A stretch of DNA of 64,000 bases from Thermococcus siculi. Lineage in GTDB: Archaea; Methanobacteriota_B; Thermococci; Thermococcales; Thermococcaceae. The stretch is from positions 868,001 to 932,000 of the forward strand of contig NZ_CP015103.1 of the NCBI RefSeq assembly GCF_002214505.1, written 5' to 3'. The notes beneath the pieces were generated by a model. It was not told where the DNA came from, ran no database searches, and was given only the letters and a program-made list of their open reading frames with translations. Of this stretch, positions 6,264-58,201 are shown piece after piece (position 1 is the first letter of the stretch; every line of letters begins with the position of its first letter). The translations under genes and the position numbers were made by a program.

Positions 6264-7352
<1,089 letters not shown>

Positions 7353-7399
7353 CGAAGGGGTTAAATATCGGAAGGTCCAACCTCAAAGTGGGTGCGAAG

Positions 7400-7588
7400 A
7401 TGGAGGGTATTGAGTACATCTACGACAAGCACGGCAGGATAAAAGGGGTTATAGTGCCTCCGGAGCTGTGGGAGAAGGTGAGGGAGAAAATCTTCGAGCC
7501 CTCAAAGTACAGAGGGATTTACAAGGGGAGAAAAGACCTCAAAAAGAGCCTCCGGGAGCTGAGGGACGAATGGGAGAGGGATTTCTGA
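7400..7588 (+). CDS. vapB: VapB-type antitoxin
   Basis: A 62-residue protein directly upstream of, and overlapping, a PIN-domain toxin gene. The N-terminus (MEGIEYIYDKHGRIKGVIVP) is predicted beta-rich, and the C-terminal half is a charged helical tail (about 35-62) that could wrap the toxin. This layout is typical of archaeal VapB antitoxins of the AF1095/DUF217-like group, although the DNA-binding fold is not certain. ATG 7400 follows GGTGCGAAG; a GTG at 7388 is an alternative. A TATA-like TTAAATAT lies near 7361. VapB proteins usually repress their own operon. Confidence 0.78.
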   Translation: MEGIEYIYDKHGRIKGVIVPPELWEKVREKIFEPSKYRGIYKGRKDLKKSLRELRDEWERDF

Positions 7589-7974
7589 TAGACACGAACG
7601 TTCTCATCTACTACCTCGCCGATGCCATTCCTGGGGAAGAGCTTCCCAGAGTGGAGGAAATTTTGAAGGAGAGCTTCAACGTCTCGATAATCACGAAAAT
7701 AGAGTTTCTGGGTTGGAAAGGGCACACTCCGGAGGGATTTGAAAAGTCAAAGGAGTTCATAAGCTTTGCCCATGTAATTCCCCTTACCGAAGATATTGCT
7801 GAACTCGCAATCGAGCTTAGGAGAATGAAGAGCATAAAGCTTCCGGATGCAGTAATAGCTGCCACTGCCCTGAGATACGGCTACACCCTCGTGACGAGAA
7901 ACGTTGGGGACTTCAAGGGCATTGAAGGGCTTAGAATTTACAACCCGTTTGAAAAGATTGACGGGAAGGGTTAG
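7570..7974 (+). CDS. vapC: VapC-type PIN-domain ribonuclease toxin
   Basis: A 134-residue PIN-domain endoribonuclease, the toxin of a type II pair. The four acidic metal ligands are visible: LIDTNVLIYYL (Asp), ITKIEFLGW (Glu), LPDAVIAATAL (Asp) and TRNVGDF (Asp). ATG 7570 gives MGEGFLIDTN and overlaps vapB by 19 nt, so the pair is translationally coupled. Members of this family cleave tRNA or rRNA; the target here cannot be told from sequence. Confidence 0.9.
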   Translation: MGEGFLIDTNVLIYYLADAIPGEELPRVEEILKESFNVSIITKIEFLGWKGHTPEGFEKSKEFISFAHVIPLTEDIAELAIELRRMKSIKLPDAVIAATALRYGYTLVTRNVGDFKGIEGLRIYNPFEKIDGKG

Positions 7975-8007
7975 TCCGTTTTTGCCTCTTCATGTCGATT
8001 TTGGCGT

Positions 8008-8853
8008 CTACTCCCCTACCTCGACCCCGTAGACCTTCTCCGGGTTCTCCATGTGGATTTTGTAAACGTCCTCCTCCGTGAAGAGTCCATTCTGGAGGAA
8101 GGCCTTCGTTCTCTTTGGGACAGTCTTCGGTCCGAGAACCGCCCCGGGCCTTCTCTTGTCGTCTATGTAGTCGGTCTCCATCATGAAGCGGTTTCCCTGT
8201 TCTATTGCAGCTTTGATGTTCTTCCTGCTTGCTATTATGCTCGGGAAGACGCCGACCTCTTCCGCCACCTTAACCAGCGGCGGCGAGAAGTGTTTCACAA
8301 CCTTGTATGGCTTTATCCCGACCTCCCTAACGTACTTCCCCAGCTCCCTGAACTTCTCCTCGTCGAAGCTCTCGGTGTGGAGCTGAACGGCGCAGTCGGC
8401 TTCCTTAGCCAGGCTCATACCATACTTCATCAGCTCGATGCTGGCGTTCCATATCTCCTCGGGGACTGGATAGTGGGGCCTGCCGATTTCACCGATACCT
8501 ATAGCTTTCCCCTCGAGGCAGAGCTTCTGTGCATATTCCAAAGCCCTCATGACCTCGTTTTTGGCGTACTCTAGGCCTTTCTCCCTCGCCAGGTAGTCGA
8601 ACTCAGCCGGGTGAACTCCAACCACCGCGTAGGCCTTCACTGGGGTTTCTTTGTTTATCCTCCCGACCAGCTCGATGTGGAAGTCCATCGCCTTCATGAA
8701 GTCCTCCGCCTTGAGTCCGGGGAAGCCGTAGTCGTGGGCGGTCTTGTAAACGACAACGAGGTGAGTTCCGCCCGCTCTGTGGAACTCCTTCACAGCCTCC
8801 AAAAACAGCCCGTGGTATGGGTCAACGTGGAAGTGGTCGTCCCAGATTATCAT
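8008..8853 (-). CDS. TatD-family metal-dependent hydrolase (COG1099-like)
   Basis: A 281-residue TIM-barrel amidohydrolase of the TatD superfamily. Expected metal ligands are present in order: DDHFHVD (HxH), IGIGEIGRPH (Glu), AVQLHTE (His), VVKHFSP (His) and METDYID (Asp). TatD proteins are metal-dependent nucleases or hydrolases; this archaeal branch has no assigned substrate. ATG 8853 follows GAGGTGAGAG. It is the last gene of a minus-strand run, starting 9 nt after the barrel-domain gene stop. Confidence 0.86.
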   Translation of the reverse strand: MIIWDDHFHVDPYHGLFLEAVKEFHRAGGTHLVVVYKTAHDYGFPGLKAEDFMKAMDFHIELVGRINKETPVKAYAVVGVHPAEFDYLAREKGLEYAKNEVMRALEYAQKLCLEGKAIGIGEIGRPHYPVPEEIWNASIELMKYGMSLAKEADCAVQLHTESFDEEKFRELGKYVREVGIKPYKVVKHFSPPLVKVAEEVGVFPSIIASRKNIKAAIEQGNRFMMETDYIDDKRRPGAVLGPKTVPKRTKAFLQNGLFTEEDVYKIHMENPEKVYGVEVGE

Positions 8854-9881: not shown

Positions 9882-10546
9882 CACTCCCACCCCCGTGCGT
9901 CTATGTTGACCTCTTTTCCTGCCAGCGAGAGATTGACGCTCTTCTTCACCCTGAGGTTGGCCCCGGTGTGGTAAGGTGACAGCTCGATGAGGGTCGTTGA
10001 TATCCTCTCAAGCTCGGGTAGCACGTTGACGGGCAGGCTTTCCATGACCTTCCTGTTGACTATGTAGAACGCCTTTCTCCTCTTATTCCCAGTGAACCTC
10101 TGGATGGCAAGGAGAATGCGGTACACGTCGAAGGGATTCCTCACTATCAGAAATATGTTCTCAAGGCCAAGGACGAGGTTTATCGTGGGAGATGGGACCT
10201 CTTTGAACACCCTCTGGCTCGTCTCCTCGTAGTTTTTGAGGTAAATCCTCGGGTCCGAATGGAACGGAACCTTCGCCACGACCTTTCCCAGCTCGATCCG
10301 CCCCCCAGTCTTCTGGACGTACACGTCTCTGAGGTCTATGGTCAGGTTCATGAATTCCGCGTGGGTGATTATGGTGTGGAGTGTGTCAAAGTTATCATCT
10401 ATGAGCAGAGCGGTTCCGGTTCTTTTTGAATAGTCCACGAAGAACCTCAGAAGAAACTCCGGTATGTACGAGGTGGTGTACTCGACCAGAACCGTTTCTC
10501 CCGGGAGAATGCGGTTCATAACTTCAGCAGCCTTTTCCCATTCCAT
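9881..10546 (-). CDS. DUF257 family protein, first gene of the four-gene run
   Basis: A 221-residue paralog of the next gene, with PGETVLVEYTTSYIPEFLL in the degenerate P-loop position and NLVLGLENIFLIV in the core. ATG 10546 (MEWEKAAEVM) follows GGGTGGGA; longer in-frame starts upstream run into promoter sequence and are not preferred. A TATA-like element (TGTTTATATTC, minus strand) lies about 35 nt upstream, so this gene begins a separate transcript after hydA. Role unknown; the tandem pair may form a heteromer (inference). Confidence 0.82.
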   Translation of the reverse strand: MEWEKAAEVMNRILPGETVLVEYTTSYIPEFLLRFFVDYSKRTGTALLIDDNFDTLHTIITHAEFMNLTIDLRDVYVQKTGGRIELGKVVAKVPFHSDPRIYLKNYEETSQRVFKEVPSPTINLVLGLENIFLIVRNPFDVYRILLAIQRFTGNKRRKAFYIVNRKVMESLPVNVLPELERISTTLIELSPYHTGANLRVKKSVNLSLAGKEVNIDARGWE

Positions 10547-10576
10547 GACTCCCACCCTTTTAGAGTTATTTTGGGA

Positions 10577-10587
10577 GAATATAAACA
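10577..10587 (-). promoter_or_regulatory. TATA box for the DUF257 run
   Basis: TGTTTATATTC on the minus strand, about 31-41 nt upstream of ATG 10546, in the 122-nt AT-rich gap after hydA. Confidence 0.5.
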
Positions 10588-10668
10588 TTTTGTGAGAACT
10601 CTGCGGTTTTTGTCCGAATATTCCAGAAATTTTGATGCCAAAATGTGGACAAAGGATAAGGAAAAGAA

Positions 10669-11916
10669 TCACAGCTTCACGAGGTGCACCGAGCAGGATA
10701 TGCACGGATCGAAGGCCCTTACAGTCTCCTCAAGCCTCTGTATCATGTCCCCCTCGTCTGCTTCACCGTAGAGGGCTTTGGCTTCCCTCAGCAGGCTGGC
10801 CTCTATCATGGCGTGGTTTAGTGCCGTTGGTGTTATTATATTGGAGTATGTGATTCTGCCCTCTGAATCGGTGCGGTAGTGGTGTATGAGGACTCCCCTC
10901 GGCGCCTCGACGTAGCCTATCCCTTCCCCTTCCCTTGGCTCGACCGGGACGTTCTCCCCGTTAATTCCGCGGTCTAGGAGGGTCTTCGCTATCTCTCCAG
11001 CCCTCTCAAGGGAATAGACAAGTTCTATCGCCTGTGCCAGGTTGTTATAGCTCACATAACCGGTCTCAAGCCTCTCCCGGTGCTCCTCGAAGAGCCTCTT
11101 GGCCTCGGGAGTCAGCATTTCGTTCTTCAGCAGGAGTCTCGACAGGGCACCCACGAAGAAGTCCTCCCCGTTGTAGCGGCTCTGCTTGGCGAAGCTGTAA
11201 ACGAGGGAGCGTTCCTCTATTCTCTCGGTGTAGTGGAACGGTTCCTTGTCCTCGGCGATCAGCCTCTTCCCCCACAGGTAGCCGTCCGTAACGACGAAGT
11301 GCTTTACCCTTTCGCCGTATGGGTCAAGCTGGGCGAAGAGCCTCACGGCCCTCTTGGCGAGCCTCAGGAGAGCCTCGCTCTGCCTCTCAACCTCCTCCAG
11401 TCCCTCCTGCGTGGGATACCTCCCAAAGCCGCCGGGTTTAACGTTTATGCCGTGTATCTCCCTTCCGCCTATAAGTTCTCTCAGCCTGTTCCCGAAGGCC
11501 TTCAGAGCCAGCCCCTCCTTCACAAGCTCGCCGTGTTTCGTGGCCATCCTTATTGCGTCCGGATATCCAAAGACGTCGGGGGCGACGAGCAGATACAGGT
11601 GCAGCGCGTGGCTCTCAAGGAACTCCCCGATGAGGCCCAGCTCCCTCAACAGCTGAATCTCCTCTGGAACCTCAACTCCGAAGGCCCTCTCTATCCCCAT
11701 GACCGATGCGACGCTGTGGGCTAAATAGCAGATGGCGCATATCCTGGCCTCTAAATCCGGAACGTCGTAGTAGTGCCTCCCGAGGGTCAGCAGCTCAAAG
11801 AAACGCGGCCCTTCGACTATCTTGAGCCTCACGTCCTTAACATCACCGTCCTCTATCACTATCTCCGCCTTACCGTTCCCCTCCACTCTGGCGAACTCCC
11901 TCAGCTCGATTATCAT
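10669..11916 (-). CDS. hydA: NiFe hydrogenase (sulfhydrogenase) alpha subunit, catalytic large subunit
   Basis: A 415-residue catalytic subunit of the soluble heterotetrameric NiFe hydrogenase. The nickel ligands are visible as RICAICYLAHS near the N-terminus and DPCISCSVHLVKL at the C-terminus. The protein ends five residues after the last CxxCxxH element, so little or no C-terminal peptide remains for a maturation protease. ATG 11916 shares ATGA with the hydD stop and follows GAGGTGGGA. It is the last gene of hydBGDA. The enzyme exchanges electrons between H2/H+ and NAD(P) in the cytosol, and purified homologs also reduce sulfur. It resembles sulfhydrogenase II (shyA) or Thermococcus hyhL. 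Confidence 0.93.
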   Translation of the reverse strand: MIIELREFARVEGNGKAEIVIEDGDVKDVRLKIVEGPRFFELLTLGRHYYDVPDLEARICAICYLAHSVASVMGIERAFGVEVPEEIQLLRELGLIGEFLESHALHLYLLVAPDVFGYPDAIRMATKHGELVKEGLALKAFGNRLRELIGGREIHGINVKPGGFGRYPTQEGLEEVERQSEALLRLAKRAVRLFAQLDPYGERVKHFVVTDGYLWGKRLIAEDKEPFHYTERIEERSLVYSFAKQSRYNGEDFFVGALSRLLLKNEMLTPEAKRLFEEHRERLETGYVSYNNLAQAIELVYSLERAGEIAKTLLDRGINGENVPVEPREGEGIGYVEAPRGVLIHHYRTDSEGRITYSNIITPTALNHAMIEASLLREAKALYGEADEGDMIQRLEETVRAFDPCISCSVHLVKL

Positions 11917-55992: not shown

Positions 55993-56033
55993 TGGCTTTC
56001 CTTTAATATTCATTTGGAAAGAAGGTGATACGG

Positions 56034-56231
56034 GTGATAGTCCCCGTCAGGTGCTTCACGTGTGGAAAGGTCATAGGAGACAAATACTACGAGTTTAAGG
56101 CCCGCGTCGAGAAGGGCGAGGATCCCGAGAAGGTGCTCGACGACCTCGGGGTTGAGAGGTACTGCTGCAGGAGGACGCTCCTCAGCCACGTCGAGCTGAT
56201 CGACCAGGTAATGGTCTACAAGGTGTATTGA
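56034..56231 (+). CDS. rpoN: DNA-directed RNA polymerase subunit N (Rpo10)
   Basis: 65 residues; Rpb10 homolog with a CX2C...CC zinc-binding bundle (CFTCGKV and YCCRRTLL). GTG 56034 ([12 protein letters not shown]) follows AAGGTGATACGG and gives the usual archaeal length. Located after S9 as in other archaea. Confidence 0.96.
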
Positions 56232-56248
56232 AAAACCACATTTCTTGG

Positions 56249-56326
56249 GGGGCCGTGGGGTAGCTTGGTCTATCCTCCCGGCTTGGGGTGCCGGAGACCC
56301 GGGTTCAAATCCCGGCGGCCCCACCA
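56249..56326 (+). tRNA. tRNA-Pro (anticodon GGG), CCA encoded
   Basis: Acceptor GGGGCCG / CGGCCCC, anticodon stem CCGGC-TTGGGGT-GCCGG (GGG), T arm CCGGG-TTCAAAT-CCCGG, CCA at 56324-56326. No intron. Confidence 0.95.
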
Positions 56327-56376
56327 AAAGTTTGCAATGGATTTGAGCTGGAACCTGGAAGGCAGGGGTGGTAGTC

Positions 56377-56550
56377 GTGTTTAAGTATACCCGCTTTGAG
56401 AAGGCCCGTATCATAGGGGCGAGGGCCCTTCAGATAGCGATGGGAGCGCCCATCCTCATAGACGTCCCGGAAGGAATCACGCCGCTCGACGCAGCTCTGC
56501 TCGAGTTCGAGAAGGGCATAATACCGCTCACCGTAATAAGGCCGAGCTGA
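56377..56550 (+). CDS. rpoK: DNA-directed RNA polymerase subunit K (Rpo6)
   Basis: 57 residues; Rpb6/omega homolog. [20 protein letters not shown] and the C-terminal [13 protein letters not shown] are conserved. GTG 56377 (MFKYTRFEK) follows GGGGTGGTAGTC; a longer GTG start at 56368 is less likely. Followed after 17 bases by the enolase-like gene. Confidence 0.95.
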
Positions 56551-56567
56551 TGAAAGATGACCGTGAT

Positions 56568-57582
56568 AGAGAACGTCATAGGCAGGGTTGCAGTGCTCAG
56601 GGGTGGCAGATACTCCGTTGAGGTAGACGTCCTCACTAGCTCGGGCTTTGGCCGCTTCGCCGCCCCGATAGATGAGAACCCGGCCCTCTACATAGCCGAG
56701 GCCCACAGGGCGGTCAGTGAGGTCGACGAGATAATAGGGCCAGAACTCATAGGCTTCGACGCCAGCGAGCAGGAACTTATAGACAGCTACCTCTGGGAGA
56801 TCGACGGCACCGAGAACTTCAGCCACATCGGTGCGAACACAGCCCTGGCGGTCTCAGTGGCCGTCGCCAAGGCAGCCGCCAGCGTCAAAAAAATGCCCCT
56901 CTACAGCTACCTCGGGGGCACCTTCACAACGGAACTGCCGGTGCCGATCCTTGAGGTGGCCGGCGGAGACGCCTTCGAGTACTACGTCATGGTCAGGGAT
57001 CTCATGGAGATAACCGACGTCATTGATGCCCTCAACAAAGTGCTTGAGCACGCGGAAGGAAACACTGTCGAGGCCTTCTCCAACGCGACCGAGAAGGCTA
57101 CCGATGAGCTTGGCCTCGACATCGCACTCGGACTCGTCCAGAAGCAGCCCCTGGAAACAGAGGAGGTCCTCTCGATAGTGGAGGACAACAACGTCGCCTA
57201 CATAAAGCCCATGGGCGATGAAGAGTTATTCCTTGAGCTAATCGCCGGAACCCACGAGGTGTTCGTTGACGGCGAATACCTCTTCCGCGAGAAGGACATA
57301 CTGGACAGGCGCTACTACAACGCGCTCTCCATAAAACCCATCAACCTTGGCACGCTCACCGACTTATACAACCTCGTGAACGACGCCAAGTCGGAGAGGA
57401 TAACCCCGATCCTCTCGGAGGCTCGCTACGAGTCCTCCGATGAGGCACTGGCCCACATTGCAGTGGGCCTGCGCTGCCCGGCGATGGTGTTCCGCAGGGA
57501 TTCCATCGCCAAGCTGAACGAACTGATAAGGATAGCCGAAGATTTGGGTGAAAGGGGTAGGATAATAACCTTTGAAGGATGA
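56568..57582 (+). CDS. Enolase-like protein, catalytic residues apparently lost
   Basis: About 337 residues against 425-430 for true enolase. The N-terminal domain is enolase-like (RVAVLRGGRYSVEVDVLTSSGFGRFAAP; IGANTALAVSVAVAKAAA). In the barrel, metal-binding and active-site motifs are changed: the region of VDDLF reads FVDGEYLF, that of IEDPF reads IKPMGDEEL, and the SHRSGET loop becomes SEARYESSDEALAH. NALSIKPINLGTLTDLYNLV still matches the Lys-containing strand. It is therefore probably a non-catalytic paralog. It lies between rpoK and rps2 in the information-processing cluster. The frame opens at ATG 56557 (MTVIENVIG), which is the usual annotated start; the body begins near 56568. Confidence 0.8.
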
Positions 57583-57595
57583 GGAGGTGTGAAGA

Positions 57596-58201
57596 ATGGA
57601 GGAATACCTTGTTCCGCTCGACCAGTACCTTGCCGCCGGTGTCCACATCGGCACCCAGCAGAAGACCCAGGACATGAAGAAGTTCATCTACAGGGTCAGG
57701 CAGGACGGCCTCTACGTCCTCGACGTCAGGAAGACCGATGAGAGGCTCCGCGCCGCCGGTAAGTTCCTCGCCAGGTTCGACCCGGAGAGCATACTTGCGG
57801 TAAGCGTTAGGCTCTACGGCCAGAAGCCGGTCAAGAAGTTCGGCGACGTCACCGGCGCCCGCGCGATACCCGGCCGTTTCCTCCCTGGAACCATGACCAA
57901 CCCCAAGGTCAAGAAGTTCGTGGAGCCGGACGTTCTCATCGTCACCGACCCGAGGGCCGATCACCAGGCCATGAAGGAGGCCATCGAGATCGGTATTCCG
58001 ATCGTCGCCCTCGTTGACACCGAGAACTTCCTCAGCTACGTCGACGTTGCCATACCGACCAACAACAAGGGTAGGAAGGCCCTTGCGCTCATCTACTGGA
58101 TCCTCGCGAGGGAGATCCTCTACAACAGGAAGGAGATCGAGAGCAGGGAGGACTTCAAGGTCCCGGTCGAGGACTTTGAGATGAGGATCATCAGAACCTG
58201 A
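57596..58201 (+). CDS. rps2: Ribosomal protein S2 (uS2)
   Basis: 201 residues; archaeal S2/SA protein at the mRNA exit side. [20 protein letters not shown] and [20 protein letters not shown] are conserved. ATG 57596 follows GGAGGTGTGAAGA. Confidence 0.97.

Follow-up and report, generated by a model that had tools for sequence, protein, structure and literature searches.

An enolase-like pseudoenzyme between rpoK and the S2 gene of Thermococcus siculi: a putative relic of the archaeal operon-type enolase

The locus and its neighbourhood

The window, that is, the whole stretch of DNA analysed here, comprises 64,000 nucleotides of Thermococcus siculi (NCBI RefSeq assembly GCF_002214505.1, contig NZ_CP015103.1, positions 868,001 to 932,000 of the forward strand). 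Within it a row of genes runs in the order L13 - S9 - rpoN - tRNA-Pro(GGG) - rpoK - pseudoenzyme - S2, where the identities of L13 and S9 are presumed from sequence recognition and cross-matches with other loci, without a family search. The features are the following:

56025..56231, + strand: rpoN (Rpo10), by profile match
56249..56326, + strand: tRNA-Pro(GGG)
56368..56550, + strand: rpoK (Rpo6), directly upstream of the pseudoenzyme (RNA_pol_Rpb6 match)
56557..57582, + strand: enolase-like pseudoenzyme of 341 aa, NF006223/PRK08350 family (ORF list, profile matches, model and residue map)
56557..56931, + strand: N-terminal capping domain, residues 1-125, the most conserved part (Pfam, dN/dS, invariance)
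56584..56586, + strand: codon of R10, the Arg of the dimer contact, which aligns with R8/R11 in other enolases (42/42 alignment rows)
56620..56622, + strand: codon of E22, invariant (42/42 rows)
56932..57492, + strand: predicted loop-trimmed eight-stranded barrel, residues 126-312, lacking two Mg ligands and the SHRSGE residues
57274..57276, + strand: codon of E240, which replaces the third Mg-ligand Asp (Glu in 21/21 Thermococcales rows)
57505..57555, + strand: predicted last helix, residues 317-333, which holds N321, E322, R325 and E328
57529..57531, + strand: codon of R325, invariant (42/42 rows)
57538..57540, + strand: codon of E328, which probably pairs with R10; invariant (42/42 rows)
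57596..58201, + strand: ribosomal protein S2 (uS2) (Ribosomal_S2 match)

The original prediction had placed an enolase homologue between rpoK and S2, and the open reading frame does lie at exactly 56557-57582, starting six bases past rpoK and ending thirteen short of S2. The Shine-Dalgarno-like GGAGGTG of S2 (57583-57589) abuts the stop codon of the pseudoenzyme, so that the two genes may be translationally coupled.

This place among RNA polymerase and ribosomal genes is as stable as had been supposed. The order rpoK - pseudoenzyme - S2 is found in 38/38 of the Thermococcales loci checked (the 30 best-scoring of the 81, seven chosen for divergence and the window's own), and also in 21/21 of the Thermococcales loci of a named scan (among the best 80 of 274), the two sets overlapping. 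The rpoK side of the neighbourhood is not kept, since none of the 17 Methanofastidiosum-group loci in which rpoN is visible leaves space for it next to the gene; the lasting neighbours of the gene are thus rpoN, tRNA-Pro and S2. The tRNA-Pro(GGG) stands beside the gene in 3/3 Methanofastidiosum-group loci and in the 1/1 Hydrothermarchaeota locus tested.

Membership in the enolase fold family follows from two Pfam profiles, both above their curated cut-offs: Enolase_N covers residues 17-119 (E 3e-25, 89.3 bits, cut-off 35), and Enolase_C matches at profile positions 193-285 of 296 only (E 1e-9, 38.3 bits, cut-off 21.5). With TIGR01060, the eno equivalog, the protein reaches 143.6 bits, below the cut-off of 300, while with NCBIfam NF006223 (PRK08350, "hypothetical protein") it scores 674 bits over its full length against a cut-off of 624; it belongs, then, to an already catalogued family that lacks a named function. 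This profile finds the gene in 81/81 Thermococcales genomes (above the cut-off in 78 of them), and its cut-off is passed by none of the 14 control genomes. Chance similarity to enolase is ruled out by the profile scores together with the structure superposition given below, and a pseudogene or annotation artefact by the open frame in 81/81 genomes and a low dN/dS.

The shortfall of about 90 residues that had been noted is also real, the protein having 341 aa and the complete enolase of the same genome 430 aa. The latter is encoded outside the window (C1:423463-424725) and is, in a genome of 2.03 Mb, the sole Enolase_C match besides the pseudoenzyme, which rules out the pseudoenzyme as the only enolase of its own genome. 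The search for a second, complete eno gene, proposed with the original prediction, was thus answered both here and in the order at large, where a complete enolase is found in 79/81 genomes, with none in G075 and a partial one only in G080.

Probable counterparts of the pseudoenzyme in T. kodakarensis and P. furiosus are TK1497 and PF1641, which Table 3 of PMC3561251 places in its "eno" column beside TK2106 and PF0215. TK1497 and PF1641 would be the operon copies; as regards the numbering around them, a figure legend of PMC4247193 names TK1499 as rpoN, and the text gives TK1501. The "enolase" listing of PF1641 and TK1497 in that table of PMC3561251 is probably a propagated annotation error, and its correction is one practical outcome of the present analysis.

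Catalytic site, fold and subunit contacts

The catalytic site was followed in an alignment of 42 rows (the window, 20 other Thermococcales, 11 intact operon-type enolases and ten short forms, described below), in which 12 positions were mapped by motif starting from row L176, with residue names that follow PMC4667285, PMC6863902 and general enolase numbering, matched by motif. All 12 are intact in 11/11 operon-type enolases; seven of them are lost in 21/21 Thermococcales rows. The first Asp of the GDD motif is taken here to be the third Mg ligand, after the yeast numbering.

Throughout the 21 Thermococcales rows the His of GGxH and the Ser of SHRSGE are lost, Lys394 and the Mg ligand D244 fall in gaps, and the His of SHRSGE has become E; the Mg ligand E291 is replaced by K in 20 rows and by R in one, and the Arg of SHRSGE by A in 20 and by T in one. 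The loop serine is N in 18 rows, D in two and S in one (lost in 20/21), and Glu166 is D in 13, E in seven and T in one. In place of the third Mg ligand, D318, all 21 rows have Glu (E240), and the equivalent of Lys343, K260, is kept in all of them. Glu207 (Glu207/208) falls in a gap in 21/21 rows of the map alignment, although a second alignment puts E184 there in 30/31 rows; in the AlphaFold2 model E184 lies at the end of helix 171-185, ahead of a strand.

Measured against phosphopyruvate hydratase (EC 4.2.1.11), the protein does not have the three Mg ligands Asp, Glu, Asp, and the His-Arg-Ser of SHRSGE with Lys394 is replaced or gapped in 21/21 rows. The earlier reading, which recognised neither Mg ligands nor an SHRSGET loop, thus stands for two of the three ligands and for His-Arg-Ser; the site has not been emptied altogether, since K260 is kept and the third ligand has changed from Asp to Glu. 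Since most of the catalytic residues are gone and a complete second enolase is present in the same genome, as in 79/81 of the order, the status of pseudoenzyme proposed from the beginning is well supported by sequence-based inference, and the protein would presumably be without enolase activity.

A side observation concerns one operon enolase of the Hydrothermarchaeota group (L190/L228, genome G115), which is fast-evolving (end branch 0.8-0.9) and carries AHRSGE in place of SHRSGE, with the 12 mapped catalytic positions present.

The predicted fold is that of a whole, loop-trimmed enolase, from which loops and ligands are missing. The AlphaFold2 model (mean pLDDT 93.2, pTM 0.91) shows the capping domain and the eight-stranded barrel of the enolase fold family, although the alignments behind the prediction contained intact enolases, which biases it toward an enolase-like model. 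All 50 of the Foldseek matches listed are enolases, and by VIA-align 337-341 of the 341 residues superpose on solved enolases (Z 39-42, rmsd 2.1-2.4 A, among the 50 matches listed). The original prediction had allowed the protein the N-terminal domain and "some barrel segments", and had proposed an overlay on enolase: the N-terminal domain is indeed kept and the whole enolase fold superposes, but the partial barrel is not borne out, the barrel being predicted complete with eight strands, so that the expression would have reflected an impression at the level of sequence.

While most of the catalytic site was lost, other residues stayed. Eighteen columns do not vary among the Thermococcales relics, the short forms and the intact operon enolases, and R10, E22, R325 and E328 are among the residues identical in 42/42 rows, the ten short forms included. 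These are putative subunit-contact residues of the homodimeric enolase-type assembly: by motif spacing we take E22 to be yeast E20 and R325 to be yeast R414, the E20-R414 contact of yeast and mammalian numbering, and match Plasmodium E425 to E328. In PMC5494301, modelling and mutants point to a dimer salt bridge R11:E425 in Plasmodium enolase that is lost on dissociation, and Y59 contacts R11 and R188; a figure legend of PMC4667285 gives beta1-beta3, alpha5 and alpha12 as the dimerization elements of enolase. R-I-x-E is found in 58/65 of the SHRSGE-bearing enolases fetched, and the strand Glu in 64/65. The dimer-contact residues may be kept for the stability of the fold alone; their retention suggests nonetheless that the pseudoenzyme could form dimers.

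The gene is under strong constraint. Over 24 genome pairs (drawn from 19 genomes, each pair with dS 0.05-1 in all three genes; the pairs are not independent of each other) the relic has a median dN/dS of 0.048, compared with 0.034 in S2 and 0.060 in the complete enolase; when each of its regions is pooled, the value for the relic is 0.021 in the N-domain, 0.062 in the mid barrel and 0.059 in the C part. Over all pairs of the 19 genomes its mean pN is 0.126, against 0.066 for the complete enolase and 0.046 for S2, therefore on longer time scales the relic evolves faster than either. In 55 distinct Thermococcales sequences 127 of the 341 positions are invariant (62/125 in the N-domain, 28/125 in the mid barrel, 32/83 in the C part and five in the last eight residues), and these include E240, K260 and E288, near the old site, in 55/55. 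Because dN/dS is low and the gene is present in 81/81 genomes of the order, it is supported, indirectly, that selection keeps a function here.

Short forms, an empty slot and the origin of the relic

In three sister families of the same class (f2-f4, Methanofastidiosum and its allies) a weak Enolase_N match occurs in 18 of 19 genomes, no short form having been found in the remaining one (G083). All 18 of these short genes lie directly upstream of S2, with rpoN upstream in 17 of the loci, the contig of the other one starting too late. After trimming to the likely start they encode 191-200 aa, made up of the N-domain and about the last 75 residues of the barrel. The named scan contains at least 15 short-form loci (among the best 80 of 274) from Methanofastidiosum and related assemblies, some of them labelled Thermococci or Methanomicrobia archaeon, and this set overlaps with the 18. 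The short form is also predicted to fold (AlphaFold2 pLDDT 91); enolases match it over about 197 of its 199 residues (Z about 17.5, rmsd 2.4 A), with other members of the enolase superfamily among the matches. Its barrel remnant, as read from the strand list of the model, would consist of strand 1, perhaps strand 2, and strands 7-8, which adjoin one another around the barrel.

In a further family (f5, genomes G100 and G101) S9, rpoN and S2 are consecutive, the gene is absent, and there is one complete enolase elsewhere. The interval between rpoN and S2, of some 150 bases, contains neither an rpoK nor an enolase-like match, nor a tRNA according to ARAGORN. The operon slot looks empty in these two genomes, and the absence of the gene shows that its job is not indispensable everywhere.

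Of the 19 genomes in families f2-f4, 13 have complete enolases, one an N-terminal fragment and five none; the six assemblies without an intact one are 69-94% complete, and the absence is therefore not firm. Two full-length enolases occur in some assemblies (G083:C135, at 7290-8546 + and 10072-11316 -; G090:C126 and C6; G097:C10 and C18), and in G083 and G090 one of the two is interrupted by in-frame stop codons. This doubling may reflect contamination, an error of assembly or a second paralog. Of the 23 genomes of the Hydrothermarchaeota group, 21 have a single Enolase_N match, one has two pieces and one has none, and the enolase is flanked by rpoK and S2 in 20/23 loci. Over the whole phylum search, no Enolase_N match was found in two of 115 genomes (G111 and G112, 77% and 61% complete).

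The short forms bear on a first alternative, namely that the protein would be a new enzyme or a ligand-binding protein, its trimmed barrel pocket refitted for some other small molecule. The invariance of E240, K260 and E288 in 55/55 sequences, with E240 at the site of the third Mg ligand, and the replacement of the ligand E291 by K in 20 of 21 rows and by R in the other one, are what such a refitting might leave behind. However, the short forms are without most of the barrel, and a pocket is therefore not the job common to both forms; furthermore the mid barrel is the least conserved part, with 28/125 invariant positions against 62/125 in the N-domain. On balance this seems unlikely.

As to origin, a tree of 60 rows places the Thermococcales relics as one clade within a set that includes 12 operon-type enolases (support 97/97), while the complete Thermococcal enolases group with bacterial and Thermoproteales enolases (100/99), their own clade having mixed support (95/60, 89/56 and 95/84 in three trees). 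The relics stay with the operon-type enolases when the short forms are left out (99/95), and the short forms join the operon type when the relics are left out (97/96), although in the 60-row tree they are placed outside the set of relics and Hydrothermarchaeota. The relic stem is long (2.1 changes per column), with long-branch warnings on the 60-row tree and on the one free of short forms, so that the exact place of the relic could be distorted by long branches. The trees are without Methanococci, none of which appeared by title among the best 80 of 274 in the named scan.

An AU test, run after the tree had been seen and on a clade that corresponds to a published hypothesis, rejects the grouping of the relic with the complete Thermococcal enolases (p=0.002). 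A clade of short forms and relics is not rejected (p 0.38), nor is one of short forms and complete enolases (p 0.25), and for this reason it is mainly their position and the relic-free tree that speak for the origin of the short forms. In 17 columns that discriminate the types of enolase, the relic has eight operon-type states, two bacterial-type and seven that are neither, three of the eight being a single deletion; when only the complete enolases of Thermococcales serve as the contrast, the figures are 7, 2 and 11, and the short forms have five operon-type states, one bacterial-type and 11 others.

These separate histories (tree and AU test) weigh against a second alternative, that of a regulatory pseudo-subunit which would form heterodimers with the complete enolase and tune its activity or stability. 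Mixed dimers would be chemically possible, the dimer-contact residues of the relic being common to intact enolases; but the neighbours of the relic are translation and transcription genes, and in 6/19 of the genomes of families f2-f4 (assemblies 69-94% complete) a short form is present where no intact complete enolase was found. We regard such a regulatory subunit as distinctly unlikely.

The same results speak against a lineage-specific duplication followed by subfunctionalization, in which the operon copy would have changed fast and the other copy moved and kept glycolysis. This is the scenario preferred in the relevant part of PMC4390880, where the basal place of the relic in the tree is taken as an artefact of fast evolution. 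Here the relic lies with the operon-type enolases and not with the complete copy, the joint clade is rejected (p 0.002), and the discriminating columns stand at 8 versus 2 for the operon type. Duplication from the complete Thermococcal enolase is thus disfavoured by trees and AU test and appears improbable to us. Because the relic groups with the operon-type enolases and the clade with the complete enolase is rejected, we conclude from these comparisons that the resident operon enolase would have been functionally displaced rather than duplicated.

That the gene might be a decaying leftover, retained only because its removal would disturb the expression of S2 downstream, is scarcely credible: the ribosome-binding site of S2 does touch its stop codon, and one lineage has a shortened gene and another none at all, but its dN/dS (0.05) is like that of S2 and of the complete enolase, 127/341 positions are invariant over 55 distinct sequences with an open frame in 81/81 genomes, a fold is confidently predicted for the long and the short form alike, and coupling by itself would not preserve a protein sequence.

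A possible non-catalytic role and its known parallels

The best explanation, which we hold with moderate confidence, is that of a displaced operon-type enolase kept as a non-catalytic dimeric adaptor or scaffold, and it is favoured because most of the catalytic site was lost while the dimer-contact elements stayed. According to this explanation, the protein would be a remnant of the operon-type enolase of archaea. A second enolase of different derivation, the complete one of the present genomes, would have taken over the glycolytic reaction in an ancestor, perhaps that of the whole class, and the resident copy would then have lost its Mg ligands, catalytic loops and substrate contacts, while strong purifying selection would have preserved it for some role other than catalysis. 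The N-terminal domain and the last helix of the barrel, which have persisted longest, would include the subunit contact of enolases, and the resulting adaptor may bind a partner in the translation or transcription machinery.

The first candidate for this partner could be S2 or the 30S subunit, because S2 is the most lasting neighbour; it is a better guess than rpoK, since the latter is not in the slot of the short forms while S2 stays. The choice is a guess from gene neighbourhood, which is also the one pointer to the role in RNA or ribosome biology at which the original prediction hinted.

A bolder extension, put forward tentatively and to our mind doubtful, is that the ancestral operon enolase already had a second, purely structural job tied to S2 and the small subunit, and that, after the chemistry had passed to another enolase, selection on that job alone would have shaped both the loop-trimmed relic of 341 aa and the form of 191-200 aa. 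If this were true, the minimal form (N-domain, adjacent sector of the barrel and dimer helix) would mark the surface responsible for it, and the same activity would be expected of intact operon enolases in other archaea.

Enolase lies within the ribosomal superoperon of many archaea, for reasons left unexplained in the parts of the literature consulted. In a lineage with a redundant and whittled-down enolase catalysis is set apart from the other job, and the part of the protein that carries the latter becomes visible, in such a way that a vague question of moonlighting becomes a small and testable one, a protein of 190 residues against a presumably dead one of 341, the longer form being found in the genetically tractable Thermococcus.

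In the literature searched (few subscription journals, without supplements) neither interaction nor knock-out data on the pseudoenzyme were found, searches by gene and family name returned neither co-purification nor deletion data on it or its counterparts, and no paper on the enolase of Methanofastidiosum was met with. Term searches in the available text of PMC2718504, PMC13324472, PMC4247193, PMC8576121, PMC5627344 and PMC2890523 did not find the pseudoenzyme, and in that of PMC12016516 found only the complete enolase TK2106.

The Thermococcal in-situ case itself is already in print. The portion of PMC4390880 consulted (Makarova, Wolf, Koonin 2015) describes fast-evolving in-situ enolase paralogs in Thermococci and, as a parallel case, in Methanococci (branches 3 and 4), and proposes that the in-situ copy lost its glycolytic role and keeps an ancillary function linked to the ribosome. 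The T. siculi gene fits that description, since rpo6 and S2 flank it and the genome has another enolase at a distant site, and the likeness extends to the presumed loss of glycolysis and the presumed ancillary role; we agree that the in-situ copy would retain only the latter, and differ on its origin. There duplication is favoured, and the portion consulted does not include residue losses, fold, selection or short forms, whereas here we map the losses, favour displacement and describe a series of shrinking forms. The short forms, the empty slot, the test of displacement and the pattern of catalysis lost and contacts kept were not found in the literature searched, and are new here.

Among the other known systems, NF006223/PRK08350 is the family of which the window protein scores as a full-length member, although its entry names no function. 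The operon-type archaeal enolases (Hydrothermarchaeota, DHVE2, Methanomicrobiales) share with the relic the rpoK-S2 slot, H300 and the loop deletion, but they keep all the mapped catalytic residues (11/11), and in 21/23 genomes of the Hydrothermarchaeota group they are the single match. The enolase of the bacterial degradosome, to which the original prediction drew an analogy, stays active. In E. coli, where it is joined to RNase E (PDB 2fym, 5ohg), an enolase of the same fold serves as a structural partner in RNA biology, and it is in this that it would resemble the role proposed for the relic.
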